Assembly: GCA_030524105.1 (NCBI GenBank)
Contig: JAUNHE010000010.1
Coordinates: forward strand, 1-50,358
Source: Rothia sp. (in: high G+C Gram-positive bacteria)
GTDB taxonomy: Bacteria; Actinomycetota; Actinomycetes; Actinomycetales; Micrococcaceae
Reading direction: 5' to 3'
Length of the DNA: 50,358 nucleotides
Part shown: one piece after another, positions 19,757 through 24,922 of the stretch
How the letters are laid out: each line of letters opens with the position of its first letter
How positions within the stretch are numbered: position 1 is the first letter of the stretch
Made by a program: the position numbers and the translations under genes
The notes under the pieces: model-generated
Told to the model about the DNA's origin: nothing
What the model saw: the letters and a program-made list of their open reading frames with translations, nothing else
Database searches by the model: none

Positions 19757-21100
19757 ATGACTAAGATCACCTACCGCCTACCTCAGGAAATCAAGCTGAC
19801 CGGCGCCCTTCCCGGCCCCAAGTCCGCTCAACTCGCTGCTCGCCGCGCCGCCAGCCTACCTGCCTCCGTAGCTTCCGTTCTGGATGTTTATGCTGCTGAT
19901 GCGGACGGCGGCGTGCTGGTGGATGTGGATGGCAACTCTTTTGCCGATCTGGGCTCCGGCATTGCCGTTACCTCCGTGGGCGCCTCCGCCCCTAAGGTTG
20001 TTGGCGCCGTCAGCCAGGCGGTCAGCCATTTTACCCATACCTGCTTTATGGTTACCCCTTACGAGGGTTACTTAGCCCTTGCCGAAAAGCTTAACCAGCT
20101 GACTCCTGGCAACTTCGAAAAGCGTTCTGTCCTCTTTAACTCTGGTGCTGAAGCTGTAGAAAATGCCGTTAAGATTGCCCGTGCAGCAACGGGACGCAGT
20201 GCTGTGGTTGTCTTTGATCATGCCTACCACGGCCGTACCAACCTGACCATGGCTCTTACCGCTAAGTCCGCCCCCTATAAGAAGGGCTTTGGCCCTTTTG
20301 CCCCCGAGATTTACCGTGCCCCCATGAGCTACCCCTATCGCGACGCTAATACCAGCGGTGAGCAAGCAGCAGCCCGCGTGATCGACATGATCGAAAAGCA
20401 GATCGGCTCAGAATACGTTGCTGCCATTCTGATTGAGCCCGTACAGGGTGAGGGCGGCTTTATTGTTCCCGCCCAGGGCTTTTTGCCCAAGCTCACCGAC
20501 TGGGCCCGGCAGAAGGGCATTGTTTTTATTGCGGATGAAGTCCAGACCGGTTTCTGCCGTACCGGCTCCTGGTTTGCATCCGACCAGGAAGGCATCGAGC
20601 CCGATCTCATTACCTCTGCCAAGGGTATAGCCGGTGGCATGCCTCTTTCGGCAGTTACCGGCCGGGCCGAGCTCTTTGACAAGGTACAGGCAGGTGGCCT
20701 GGGCGGCACCTACGGCGGCAACCCCGTGGCCTGTGCCGCTGCCCTAGCCACCATTGAGACCATGGAAGAATGGGATCTAGCTGCCCGGGCTCGGCGCATC
20801 CAAGAAATCTGCCGCGAAAAGCTGGAAGTCTTGGTCGATGAACTTGACATCGTCGGTGAATTCCGTGGCCGCGGCGCCATGCTAGCCCTTGAGTTTGTGG
20901 CAGATTCGGTTTCTAAGGAGCCTCACCCTAGCGCAGCTAAAGACCTTGCGGCAGCTTGCGCTAAACGTGGTGTTCTGATTCTTACCTGTGGCACCTACGG
21001 CAACGTCGTGCGCCTGCTGCCCCCGCTAACCATCAGCGAAGAGCTGCTTACCCAGGCCCTGGATATCTTCGTCGAAGAAATCCGCAAGGTCGCAGCCTAA
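19757..21100 (+). CDS. gabT: 4-aminobutyrate--2-oxoglutarate aminotransferase
   Basis: PLP-dependent class-III aminotransferase, 447 aa, the normal size for GabT. It moves the amino group of GABA to 2-oxoglutarate, giving succinate semialdehyde and glutamate. The PLP Lys is residue 289 (TSAKGIAGGMPLSAV). Other signatures are NSGAEAVENAVKIAR, AYHGRTNLTMALTAK, IEPVQGEGGF and FIADEVQTGFCRTG. It is placed between two aldehyde dehydrogenases, consistent with its role as the middle step of putrescine-to-succinate catabolism. Start is ATG at 19757 with GAAAGAAA ahead. Confidence 0.93.
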   Translation: MTKITYRLPQEIKLTGALPGPKSAQLAARRAASLPASVASVLDVYAADADGGVLVDVDGNSFADLGSGIAVTSVGASAPKVVGAVSQAVSHFTHTCFMVTPYEGYLALAEKLNQLTPGNFEKRSVLFNSGAEAVENAVKIARAATGRSAVVVFDHAYHGRTNLTMALTAKSAPYKKGFGPFAPEIYRAPMSYPYRDANTSGEQAAARVIDMIEKQIGSEYVAAILIEPVQGEGGFIVPAQGFLPKLTDWARQKGIVFIADEVQTGFCRTGSWFASDQEGIEPDLITSAKGIAGGMPLSAVTGRAELFDKVQAGGLGGTYGGNPVACAAALATIETMEEWDLAARARRIQEICREKLEVLVDELDIVGEFRGRGAMLALEFVADSVSKEPHPSAAKDLAAACAKRGVLILTCGTYGNVVRLLPPLTISEELLTQALDIFVEEIRKVAA

Positions 21101-21246: not shown

Positions 21247-22623
21247 ATGAGCTACCGTCTTGAAGACCCCACCACCGGCCAGGTGCTCGAAACCTTCGAC
21301 ACCATGACCGACGAGCAGGCCAGCGCCGCCATTGAAACCGCCCACACCGCCTACCTGTCCTGGCGGACCACCGCTGTTGAAGAACGAGCTGCCATCGTCA
21401 AGCGTATTGCCCAGCTCTTTGAAGAACGCAAGACCGAGTTGGCCAAAATTATCTCCCAGGAGATGGGTAAACCTCTCTCAGAGGGCATCGAAGAAGCTGA
21501 GTTTTCTTCCGCTATCTTTGCCTACTATGCGGATATAGCAGCTGACCACCTTAAAGATGAGCCTATCCCTTCTAGTGCCGAGAACTCCCAGGCCTACATC
21601 CAGCGTAGGCCCCTGGGCGCTCTGCTAGGCATTATGCCCTGGAATTTCCCCTACTATCAGGTTGCCCGTTTTGCCGCTCCCAACCTAATGCTGGGTAACA
21701 CCATTGTGCTTAAGCATGCCGAGATTTGTCCCCGCTCAGCCCTGGCCATTGAGCAGCTGCTGCTGGATGCTGGCCTGCCCCAGGGAGTCTACCAGGCCGT
21801 CTTTGCTAGCCACAGCCAGATCGAGTCCATGATAGGCCAGCGCCATATTCAGGGTGTTTCGCTGACCGGGTCGGAGCAAGCTGGCGCTATCGTGGCCGGT
21901 ATTGCAGGTAAGAACCTAAAGAAGGCGGTGCTGGAGCTGGGTGGCTCTGACCCTTACATCGTCTTGGACACCGACGATGTGGCTGGTGCGGCAGCCACCG
22001 CCTGGGGTTTCCGTATGTACAACACCGGCCAGGCCTGTAACTCTAATAAACGTCTGATTGTTATGGACCATATATACGATCAGTTTGTGGCTGAGCTGGT
22101 CAAGTTAGCGCAGGCCATGCAGCCCGGCAAACCTACTGAAGCCAAGGAGACCACCTACATGCCCCTGTCCTCCCGGTCAGCGGCTGAGGGTCTCAAGAAG
22201 CAGCTGGACGCGGCTGTTGCTGCCGGAGCCACCCTGCAGGTTGGTGGTGAGCTGCTGGATGAGACAAGCGCCTACCTTTCCCCGGCCGTGTTAACCGATG
22301 TACCCGTAGGCTCCGAGGTCTACTACCAGGAGCTTTTTGGCCCTGTCGCAACGGTTTACCGAGTGAGCAGCGAAGAAGAAGCCATCGAGCTGGCTAACAA
22401 CACCCAGTACGGCCTAGGCGGCGCCGTCTTCTCCCAGGACGAAGAGCGTGCCCGCCGCCTGGCCCAGCAGATTGACGCCGGCATGGTCAACGTTAATACT
22501 CCTGCCGGTGAGGGCGCCGAAATTCCTTTCGGCGGTGTTAAGAACTCCGGCTACGGCCGCGAACTAGGCCCCTACGGCATGGACGAATTTGTTAACAAGC
22601 GTCTCTACTTTATTCAGAAGTAA
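21247..22623 (+). CDS. NAD(P)-dependent succinate-semialdehyde dehydrogenase-like enzyme
   Basis: 458-aa aldehyde dehydrogenase of the short GabD2/Sad-like type (resembling M. tuberculosis GabD1). Catalytic Cys is residue 264 (TGQACNSNKR) and general-base Glu is residue 230 (LELGGSDPY). The cofactor motif GIMPWNFPYYQ and LTGSEQAG are present. It complements the dehydrogenase at 18183 in oxidising 4-aminobutanal or succinate semialdehyde. Start is ATG at 21247 with AAAGGAATG ahead, just after the long inverted repeat. Its last 78 bp are duplicated, in diverged form, at 23163–23240, meaning this end of the gene has been involved in a rearrangement. A strong terminator follows immediately. Confidence 0.9.
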   Translation: MSYRLEDPTTGQVLETFDTMTDEQASAAIETAHTAYLSWRTTAVEERAAIVKRIAQLFEERKTELAKIISQEMGKPLSEGIEEAEFSSAIFAYYADIAADHLKDEPIPSSAENSQAYIQRRPLGALLGIMPWNFPYYQVARFAAPNLMLGNTIVLKHAEICPRSALAIEQLLLDAGLPQGVYQAVFASHSQIESMIGQRHIQGVSLTGSEQAGAIVAGIAGKNLKKAVLELGGSDPYIVLDTDDVAGAAATAWGFRMYNTGQACNSNKRLIVMDHIYDQFVAELVKLAQAMQPGKPTEAKETTYMPLSSRSAAEGLKKQLDAAVAAGATLQVGGELLDETSAYLSPAVLTDVPVGSEVYYQELFGPVATVYRVSSEEEAIELANNTQYGLGGAVFSQDEERARRLAQQIDAGMVNVNTPAGEGAEIPFGGVKNSGYGRELGPYGMDEFVNKRLYFIQK

Positions 22624-22625
22624 TA

Positions 22626-22668
22626 AAAAATAAGCCTGTCTCGCCAAAAATGAGACAGGCTTATTTTT
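22626..22668. terminator. Bidirectional intrinsic terminator
   Basis: A perfect 17-bp stem of AAAAATAAGCCTGTCTC (22626–22642) and its complement (22652–22668) around a 9-base loop. A and T runs at the two ends make it work on both strands: rightward after the aldehyde dehydrogenase and leftward after the 71-aa gene, whose stop codon overlaps the T run. Confidence 0.9.
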
Positions 22669-22882
22669 AAGTGTTGGCTTTATGGAATTTTCTATAATTT
22701 AATACCGTGCCTATTAGAAAATAGATAGACATTGTAGGGAGTACTAAATTTGCCAGTTGAGCTGTTTTTTGAAAATCTGAAAAAATAATTACTATTACTG
22801 CTGCGGTGGAAGAAATTATAAAAAACAGAAAGGAAGAAAAAGCTGCTAATGCTCGCTGAGATGCTTCTGCGTTATTAAACAT
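22667..22882 (-). CDS. Small two-helix membrane protein, unknown function
   Basis: 71-aa protein with two hydrophobic helices (about residues 13–34 and 44–62) and a basic C-terminal tail (NYRKFHKANT). It belongs to no family I recognise. Its ATG lies four bases after the stop of the 37-aa peptide gene and has no ribosome site of its own, so it is probably translated by coupling. The DNA is clearly more AT-rich than the surrounding gab genes. It lies in an insert bounded on the left by the dehydrogenase 3' end and on the right by a diverged copy of that end. Possible roles by analogy (inference only): processing, export or sensing of, or immunity to, the peptide encoded just upstream. Confidence 0.6.
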   Translation of the reverse strand: MFNNAEASQRALAAFSSFLFFIISSTAAVIVIIFSDFQKTAQLANLVLPTMSIYFLIGTVLNYRKFHKANT

Positions 22883-22886
22883 GATT

Positions 22887-23000
22887 CTATATGGCTGAAG
22901 CGTTTTTGGCAGGTTGTCCGTAGGCAGGCGTGCTTAGTAGTGGAATTGCCAGGCATAGTGAAAATAAGAGCGATAGCAAAGGTTTGATAAAAACTCTCAT
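22887..23000 (-). CDS. 37-aa signal-peptide-bearing small peptide, unknown function
   Basis: The reading frame MRVFIKPLLS… has a near-perfect ribosome site (AGGAGG, 9 bases before the ATG). It shows signal-sequence features: two positive residues in the first six, a hydrophobic core (residues 7–22), a helix-breaking Pro, and plausible signal-peptidase sites after Ala26 (STPA) or Gly28 (AYG). Cleavage would release a peptide of 9–11 residues, ending in PAKNASAI. The -1 residue of the only Cys context (FSLC) argues against a lipobox. It is followed after 4 bp by the 71-aa membrane protein gene. A secreted signalling or antimicrobial peptide is one reading; the remnant of a longer secreted protein is another. 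Below usual gene-finder length limits. Confidence 0.55.
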   Translation of the reverse strand: MRVFIKPLLSLLFSLCLAIPLLSTPAYGQPAKNASAI

Positions 23001-23023
23001 GGTGAACAACCTCCTGTTTGGGA

Positions 23024-23040
23024 TCTAGAAATTTTCTAGA
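23024..23040. promoter_or_regulatory. Palindromic operator candidate before the small-peptide operon
   Basis: 8-1-8 inverted repeat TCTAGAAA-t-TTTCTAGA, ending 24 bp upstream of the peptide start, directly before its ribosome site. A related repeat lies at 23129–23142. Likely a repressor site or the 5' hairpin of the small mRNA. Confidence 0.5.
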
Positions 23041-23128
23041 ACATGGGGTGGACCCAATTTGACTTGAAGAAGGATTACTTCTGTCGTTGTATCGTAATAT
23101 TTTTTTTCAGGGGGGCACAAGACTTTCG

Positions 23129-23142
23129 TAGAAAAAATTCTA
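23129..23142. promoter_or_regulatory. Second TAGAA…TTCTA inverted repeat
   Basis: TAGAA-aaaa-TTCTA shares the TAGAA/TTCTA arms with the palindrome at 23024–23040, about 103 bp between centres. Two related sites bracketing the presumed promoter of the small operon suggest one regulator binding both. Short arms make this tentative. Confidence 0.35.
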
Positions 23143-23162
23143 GCTTTTGAAGATTGGACTTC

Positions 23163-23240
23163 TCCGGCTACGGCCGCGAGCTAGGCCCCTACGGCATGGG
23201 CGAATTCGTCAACAAGCATCTCTACTCTGTCCAAAAGTAA
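23163..23240 (+). pseudogene. 3'-end remnant of an aldehyde dehydrogenase gene
   Basis: 78 bp ending in TAA that match the last 78 bp of the dehydrogenase at 21247–22623 with 9 mismatches by my count. They encode the same C-terminal 25 residues (SGYGRELGPYGM…) apart from four substitutions. Nothing upstream of 23163 continues the match. It is either the tail of a deleted tandem paralogue, or the original tail displaced when the current gene end plus the AT-rich small operon was recombined in. Confidence 0.85.
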
Positions 23241-23320
23241 AGCTAGCTGAAAAGGTTAGCCTTGTCACCTTGTAGTAGAATGTGACAATACTCGTCAGGA
23301 GCATAAAAATAAGGCAGAAG

Positions 23321-23423
23321 GCCGCCACCCATCTTCCCCAGAGCATATTTTCCGCACCTGCCAGGAAACAGAATATGCAGCATCAGCCGATAACTCAAGG
23401 CTGATCGGGACGTGGGTGGCGGC
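23321..23423 (+). ncRNA. Candidate three-way-junction leader RNA upstream of the GabP-type permease gene
   Basis: The outer stem is 11 perfect pairs: GCCGCCACCCA (23321–23331) with TGGGTGGCGGC (23413–23423). It continues after a small internal loop with TCCC (23335–23338) and GGGA (23407–23410). Two hairpins sit inside. One is GCATATT/AATATGC (23343–23349 with 23372–23378) extended by TTCC/GGAA (23350–23353 with 23364–23367). The other is ATCAGCC/GGCTGAT (23382–23388 with 23399–23405). The junction is tight, with 0–4 unpaired bases between helices. Shortly after the outer stem comes TTTT, so the stem could also act as a terminator. The permease start is 30 bp downstream. It resembles no riboswitch class I can name. 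A 7-13-7 inverted repeat TTGTCAC/GTGACAA (23262–23288) lies upstream. Confidence 0.5.
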
Positions 23424-23453
23424 GTCCTTTTAAAATGACAAGGAAAACACATC

Positions 23454-24922
23454 ATGACACCCTCACCCTACGACCGGAAGGTCTCACCCGAGACCTCCGT
23501 AGGCCTACGCCTCCAGCGCCCCAGCCCACCCGTTGAAGGGGACGCCACCGTACACAAACTGCGCCCCCGCCACGTCACCATGATCACCCTAGGCGGTATC
23601 ATCGGCGCCTCCCTCTTTGTGGGCTCCAGCAACGTCATCCGCTCTGTAGGCCCTGCCGCGCTTATCTCCTACCTCATCGGCGGCCTGCTAGTCTTTTTAG
23701 CCATGCGGATGCTGGGCGAAATGGCAGCAGCCCGCCCCACCATCGGCTCCTTCATGGAATACGCCCGCGTAGGCTTGGGCAACTGGTTGGCTGGCTCTAC
23801 TGGTACTTCTGGGTTGGTGTACTAGCCTACGAGGCAGTGCTGGGCGGTGAAACCCTGGCCAGCTGGTTTCCCGCCCTGCCAGCCTGGGCTGCTTCCCTAA
23901 CCCTGCTAGCTATCTTTGTGGGTAGCAACCTGATCTCTGTACGTACCTTTGGCGAAGTTGAATTCTGGCTGGCCTCCATCAAGGTTCTTGCCATCCTAGT
24001 CTTCCTGGGCGCAGGCACCCTCTACGCCCTGGGCCTGTGGCCCAACTCCGTCAATACTGTCGCCAACCTTTGGTCTCACGGCGGCTTTGCCCCCAACGGC
24101 TACGGTATCGCCTTAACCGGTGTCGCCTTGGTCATTTTTTCCTACTTCGGCACCGAAATTGCCGTTATGGCTGCCGCCGAATCAGAGGACCCTGCCAAGG
24201 GTATCCGTCAAGCCTCCTCCACCGTCATTTGGCGTATCTTGCTTTTCTTCCTAGGTGCTATCCTCGTTATTACCATGGTCATCCCCTGGGATGAGCTGCC
24301 TGAGCCCACCGATGTGGCTTCTGCTCCTTTCACCCAGGTTTTTGAGCGCCTGGGCTTGCCCGCCGCCTCACTCATCATGCAGCTAGTCATCTTTACCGCC
24401 GTGATCTCGGTACTCAACTCCGGCCTCTACTCGGCCTCCCGCATGGTCGCTGCCCTCTCCCAGCAGGGCTTTGGGCCTGCCCTGCTGGCCAAGAAGTCCA
24501 GTCGCGGCGTGCCGGTCTATGCCCTACTTGCTTCAACCATTGGCGGTGTAATCGCCTCAATCGTTAATTTTGCGGCTCCCGACTCCGGTATCTTTGACTT
24601 CATCATGAACTCAGCCGGCCTGGTTGCCCTCTTTGTCTATGTCTTTATCGCGCTGACCCAGTGGAACATGCGCCGTAAGATGAGCCCCCAAGAGGTCGCG
24701 GGCCTAAAACTCAAGATGTGGTTCTTCCCCTGGTTTAACCTGGTGCTTATCGGCGGTGTTCTCTTTGTGCTAGTTATTATGCTGACTAGCGAATTAGGCC
24801 GCACTCAGGTCTTCACTTCTCTGATCATCACTGCGGTAATGCTGGCCCTCTGGCCCCTGGCACGCAAAAAAGCCAGGCAGGTAGAGCAAGACCGTGCATC
24901 CTCAGCGGAGCTAAAAGTTTAA
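23454..24922 (+). pseudogene. gabP: GabP-type amino acid permease gene with a frameshift
   Basis: Two consecutive frames together encode one APC permease of about 485 residues. The first part (23454–23825) covers the N-terminus with the consensus amphipathic loop PTIGSFMEYARVGLGNW. The second, open across 23789–24922, continues with GWLYWYFWVGVLAYEAV, which is the expected next stretch in GabP/ProY-like transporters. The break is at a GGCTGGCT tandem at 23789–23796. Adding one GGCT unit restores an uninterrupted frame; the family usually has a few more residues here, so a slightly larger deletion is also possible. The rest of the protein shows no further damage, suggesting a recent mutation or a sequencing/assembly error. 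It would import GABA or a related amino acid for the gab genes. Start is ATG at 23454 with AAGGA. Confidence 0.85.

Follow-up and report, generated by a model that had tools for sequence, protein, structure and literature searches.

In Bacillus subtilis, the toxin SdpC is made as a Sec-secreted precursor that is cut to a hydrophobic, disulfide-bearing C-terminal toxin, and SdpI is the membrane protein that provides immunity. The active C-terminal fragment of halocin C8 is cysteine-rich. For the haloarchaeal HalC8 and HalH4, release of an active C-terminal fragment from a precursor is described (PMC12893001), and a reference of that paper reports a single gene for both production of and immunity to halocin C8. 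The pneumococcal blp cheaters no longer make or export the bacteriocin and keep immunity, the transporter gene blpA being disrupted (PMC4739721). Here, a small cassette of Rothia sp. is compared with these systems. It is located in a stretch of 50,358 nt (contig JAUNHE010000010.1), referred to as the window. Judged from its sequence, the cassette is likely a toxin-deletion remnant of a unit made up of a Sec-secreted bacteriocin-like toxin and its immunity protein, with the immunity gene left as an orphan.

The genes of the cassette are on the minus strand, opposite to both neighbours, gabD and a gabP-like permease gene. The ribosome binding site AGGAGG (23010..23015) is located 9 nt ahead of an ATG at 23000, which opens a 37-aa frame (22887..23000). 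This frame, a signal peptide with a short tail, represents the start of a secreted precursor that has lost approximately 205 codons. Four bases (22883..22886) separate it from a 71-aa frame (22667..22882) with two hydrophobic stretches, encoding a two-helix membrane protein that is probably the immunity protein of the vanished toxin. No ribosome site belonging to the 71-aa frame itself was found by eye. A terminator hairpin (22626..22668), usable from either side, lies between gabD and the cassette. It is a perfect 17-bp inverted repeat (22626-22642 / 22652-22668) with a folding energy of -24.1 kcal/mol, compared to a shuffle mean of -5.9 (z -8.2). Ahead of the pair lies the palindrome TCTAGAAATTTTCTAGA (23024..23040), which is probably an operator or may be another cassette-specific control site. 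The palindrome and the ribosome site are found in the upstream block of all four aligned loci. The palindrome occurs once in the 2.19-Mb window genome and once each in three of five other Rothia genomes searched, which are exactly the carriers of the cassette; the two genomes without the cassette have none. Although the palindrome is unique per genome and bound to the cassette, the cassette encodes no regulator. A promoter scan found no sigma-70-like promoter ahead of the pair on the minus strand. The ribosome site, the two frames with their four-base gap, the terminator and the palindrome had all been listed in the preliminary description, and each was confirmed on the minus strand.

The cassette is a genuine insertion, since the 79-bp 3' end of gabD recurs behind the pair and since in genome G273 a gap of about 0.12 kb, free of the cassette, separates the same neighbours, gabD and gabP. 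The original gabD end (22545..22623, plus strand) and its second copy (23162..23240, plus strand; 89% identical), which marks the far edge of the insertion, flank the cassette. Corresponding second copies are also present in G287 and G147. G287 agrees with the window at both insertion edges: gabD borders the cassette at one edge, and the duplicated gabD end borders it at the other. For G147, the contig of the cassette includes only the edge that faces away from gabD, where the second gabD-end copy adjoins the cassette. The G+C content is 0.44 at 22501-23500, versus 0.54-0.60 in the next intervals outward. Low G+C content, opposite strand, gabD duplication and the cassette-free G273 bear out the initial impression of an AT-rich insertion divergent from its neighbours. 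The permease gene beside the insertion is split into two frames (23454-23825 and 23837-24922), which is an apparent frameshift or possibly a sequencing error.

The 37-aa frame had initially been taken for a gene releasing a peptide of 9-11 residues. In G287 and G147 (R. nasimurium E1706032 and irhom_31), the same start, MRVFLKSLLSLLFSLCLAIPLL, opens a 242-aa secreted precursor, which ends 4 nt ahead of the same 71-aa gene, as in the window. The DNA alignment of four loci contains a single gap of 615 columns in the window copy, in frame, spanning from codon 36/37 (after QP...SA) to the stop. The intact R. nasimurium homologues thus identify the frame as the truncated start of a longer secreted protein, an outcome that had been named in advance as fatal to the peptide gene, and on their strength the reading of the 37-aa frame as a peptide pheromone or toxin gene is rejected. 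Compared with the precursor family, the window copy retains the signal peptide and lacks both pro-domain and six-cysteine core; because the signal peptide alone is kept, it is a remnant and not a working precursor. To judge from these alignments, what survives in the 37-aa frame is the signal sequence of a larger, bacteriocin-like protein, the rest of which has been deleted. Of the secreted peptide and partner membrane protein originally proposed, the peptide gene gives way to a truncated precursor, and the suggestion of immunity for the partner fits best.

Relatives of the 71-aa protein were found in 4 of 295 genomes of the family, all from one genus, the window genome among the four. In the three other genomes (3/3), the relative stands directly behind a precursor, intact in two and broken in one. 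The 71-aa gene is thus tied to a toxin-type gene that is missing in the window, as an orphan immunity gene should be. The broken case is G033, where the relative lies elsewhere in the genome, behind a precursor that is interrupted by frame breaks and lacks about 105 nt of its core, the 71-aa gene itself being open. Searches with the 71-aa protein gave no match among plasmids. A scan of viral contigs detected no relative (7 stretches). In the PDB, searched by sequence, a single-protein query had one match (E 0.67) and a profile query had none.

The precursors consist of a signal peptide, a pro-domain and a C-terminal six-cysteine core. A profile built from four precursors had matches with an E value of 0.01 or lower in 19 of the 395 family genomes. 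Five weak genomes (G314, G043, G262, G246 and G142) were dropped from the count, leaving 15 loci in 14 genomes. Of these loci, eight are intact, six are broken or reduced, and one (G224) is without a recognisable signal peptide. The broken or reduced precursors are those of the window, the second copy of G033, G212 and G219 (stop), G323 (frameshift) and G156 (last residues only). In the phylum, the profile matched 3 of 396 genomes, namely the window genome, G640 (strong) and G438 (weak, left out of the counts). Searches of plasmids with the precursors returned only those of Arthrobacter agilis, with another intact precursor, and of Pseudalkalibacillus (Bacillota). The cysteine spacing 18-3-11-2-17 was present in 14 of 16 loci scanned with a pattern in which the gaps of 3 and 2 were fixed beforehand and the others were free within limits; the two loci lacking the core are G156 and the broken copy of G033. 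The distant Pseudalkalibacillus relative (L044:4792-5588) keeps the core, with a spacing of 18-3-9-2-17 by eye, and has its signal peptide in another frame. It is followed by a transposase-like frame, with no two-helix gene directly behind, which counts against reading the family as a two-gene unit. In Pfam and NCBIfam, no precursor or partner examined scored over a curated cut-off (the alignment scans give the cut-off of the first member only). The G033 precursor matches the beta-lactamase ROB model by chance (E 0.008, 15 bits versus a cut-off of 675). No account of the precursor family was recognised in the literature searched, most subscription journals lying outside the search. In G043 (L033:1151-2163), the C-terminus behind a related pro-domain is cysteine-rich but of a different kind, and an overlapping small membrane protein lies in front; judging by this arrangement, an exchange of cores is possible. 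A further bacteriocin-immunity pair may lie near the intact cassette of G033 (L012:2879-3476, minus strand), where a 127-aa membrane protein comes after a 76-aa glycine/alanine-rich protein.

A two-helix frame of approximately 58-73 aa, some of these lengths assuming an internal ATG, lies directly behind the precursor at all 16 loci scanned for cysteines and in the window. It accompanies all ten intact precursors (the eight of the family, G640 and the A. agilis plasmid) and is open at 15 of 15 family loci, those with broken precursors included. Precursors have therefore been lost repeatedly beside open partner genes. Precursors are, on the other hand, about 3.5 times as long as the partners and would therefore break first by chance; on length alone, six of six partners would be open with a chance of about 0.2. 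With a profile of the partners, the search of 395 family genomes yielded 35 strong matches (E 8e-13 or better), of which 11 lie at precursor loci and 24 elsewhere; weaker matches were dropped, with the exception of the C10 locus (G000). The precursor and partner profiles were each searched against 395 family genomes, in sets that are perhaps not identical. The upstream DNA of 19 of the 24 matches elsewhere was inspected, and no precursor frame was seen. Remnants of a precursor C-terminus stand ahead of the partners of G156 and G141 (tblastn E 2e-5 and 0.009) and, by eye only, ahead of those of G050, G280 and G195. The window genome has a second orphan of 58 aa on contig C10 (about 20019-20195, minus strand, equal to L107:2020-2196, minus strand), adjoining a carbonic anhydrase gene and sharing 57% identity with the partner that accompanies the intact precursor of G033. 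Directly ahead of it lies a remnant of a precursor C-terminus with 33 of 48 nt identical, a value reached by none of 20,000 random 48-mers from the window; the tblastn search that gave the G156 and G141 remnants did not pick it up. Several orphans within one genus may represent a single event. Partner profile A6 found no match in G287 and G147, so only place, size and topology connect the 71-aa type of Rothia with the other partners. The DUF5957 match of one partner (E 0.004, under the cut-off) and those to DUF308, SirB and others are chance matches.

From this gene content we infer toxicity, protection, translational coupling and processing. The original cassette would have been a two-gene unit of bacteriocin type, consisting of a Sec-secreted precursor and a small two-helix membrane protein protecting the producer. 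The signal peptide and pro-domain would be cleaved off, presumably by proteolysis, and the hydrophobic C-terminal core thereby set free would be about 60 residues long, with its six cysteines presumably joined in three disulfides. This core would attack the membranes of relatives, and the two-helix protein would shield the membrane of the producer. The window strain has lost 615 nt of the precursor in frame and retains the promoter region, the palindrome, the ribosome site, the signal peptide and the stop. Because the deletion is in frame and both the ribosome site and the stop are kept, a ribosome would still arrive 4 nt ahead of the 71-aa gene, and with the stop of the translated stub in this position coupled translation could continue. 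The strain would then no longer produce the toxin but would still be immune, or would have been so for some time. The partner is read as an immunity protein because loss of the toxin with retention of the partner is the pattern expected of immunity. The pattern is suggestive rather than a proof, and it would extend to the 71-aa type of Rothia by position and topology only.

One alternative is that the deletion killed the unit and that the 71-aa gene is a functionless relic, drifting neutrally. Between the window and G287, the 71-aa gene has a dN/dS of 0.33 (17 synonymous, 20 non-synonymous; Fisher p 0.003), a pairwise value that also spans the time before the precursor was lost; the value for gabD is 0.10. 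Changes specific to the G033 copy number 13 synonymous to 12 non-synonymous (p 0.002), on a branch that likewise includes time before the loss. On the window branch, 5 synonymous and 12 non-synonymous changes, compared to 53:160 sites (Fisher p 0.77), look neutral and are exactly what drift predicts; there is no sign of constraint since the split, and a single strain of the species is available. With just 17 changes counted, however, weak constraint would stay hidden. The 71-aa frame is open, with no stop or frameshift, the ribosome site, palindrome and terminator are intact, and orphan partners are common in the family. We regard the relic as unlikely, though by some way not negligible, and it overlaps with the reading as orphan immunity. 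A still working 37-aa mini-gene, exporting a short peptide or serving as a translated leader for the 71-aa gene, is very improbable. An in-frame deletion that preserves start, ribosome site, signal peptide and 4-nt junction would suit it, but one deletion in three is in frame anyway, and the 36 codons differ by 8 synonymous and 10 non-synonymous changes in the window, which gives no clear constraint. Searches of 295 and of 35 genomes brought up longer or broken precursors and no homologue of the 37-aa product.

The precursor could also have no antibacterial role and serve instead at the cell surface or in development, as a secreted protein whose tail is knotted by disulfides. The family libraries give it no function, which leaves room for such a protein. 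Against it are the frequent loss of the precursor with its neighbour retained, the patchy distribution, the carriage on plasmids and the hydrophobic, glycine-rich C-terminal core, all of which are typical of bacteriocins, and we consider it quite improbable. Somewhat better placed, and still rather unlikely, is a two-helix protein that helps in export or maturation, or has an older membrane function to which precursors were attached. Many copies do stand alone, some apparently at fixed places of a genus (g22 beside a methyltransferase, and g32), in the manner of housekeeping genes, and immunity could reside in the pro-domain, given that a single halocin C8 gene reportedly gives both production and immunity (a reference of PMC12893001). 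Nothing would favour keeping an export helper once its cargo is gone, yet in several genera the partners have survived the loss of precursors, and some orphans were once paired, because precursor remnants stand in front of them.

With the orphan-immunity reading preferred, what appeared to be a new micro-peptide operon becomes an ordinary but informative event, in which the toxin was lost and the probable immunity was left. The find in the window is itself a remnant, and of greater interest is the family behind it, a compact, bacteriocin-like one that the comparison brings to light. It has an exact cysteine signature and is unnamed in the protein-family libraries searched. Intact copies in public Rothia nasimurium genomes make it directly testable, and together the genomes would form a record of producers becoming immune non-producers among nasal and skin commensals and soil relatives. 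In a wider and more tentative view, to which we give slightly less than even credence, these six-cysteine bacteriocins, secreted by the Sec route, would make up a class that is undescribed and widespread in the Micrococcaceae and beyond (one order-distant actinobacterium and one Bacillota plasmid), in which two-helix immunity genes far outnumber toxins. Many species, this Rothia with two orphans of two types among them, would be immune non-producers, and in-frame deletion would be favoured as it stops the toxin and keeps the translational link.

Among described systems, SdpC/SdpI appears similar in its Sec-secreted precursor, hydrophobic cysteine-bearing C-terminal core and membrane partner, and differs in that the partner described here has two helices only. 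The Pfam and NCBIfam scans, whose libraries may not include a model for SdpC, gave no match to one. The SLATT family (NF033631) shares two membrane helices and a weak score with the partners; E values of 0.19 and 0.46 (11.2 and 10 bits versus a cut-off of 60) reject membership. The halocin C8 family model (TIGR04449) was over its cut-off in none of 8 genomes and had no match at the precursor loci, although G333 and G033 gave two weak matches away from these loci; as a control, the model was found in 4 of 14 named genomes and over the cut-off in one. A secreted precursor with a C-terminal core is common to halocin C8, HalH4 and the family described here, in which the layout alone is read from the genes. 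A separate two-helix gene lies behind the precursor here, whereas halocin C8 reportedly has a single gene for both roles. With the pneumococcal blp cheaters, the window strain would share the retention of immunity by non-producers. The proteins are unrelated, and in Rothia the toxin precursor itself is deleted, rather than blpA disrupted.
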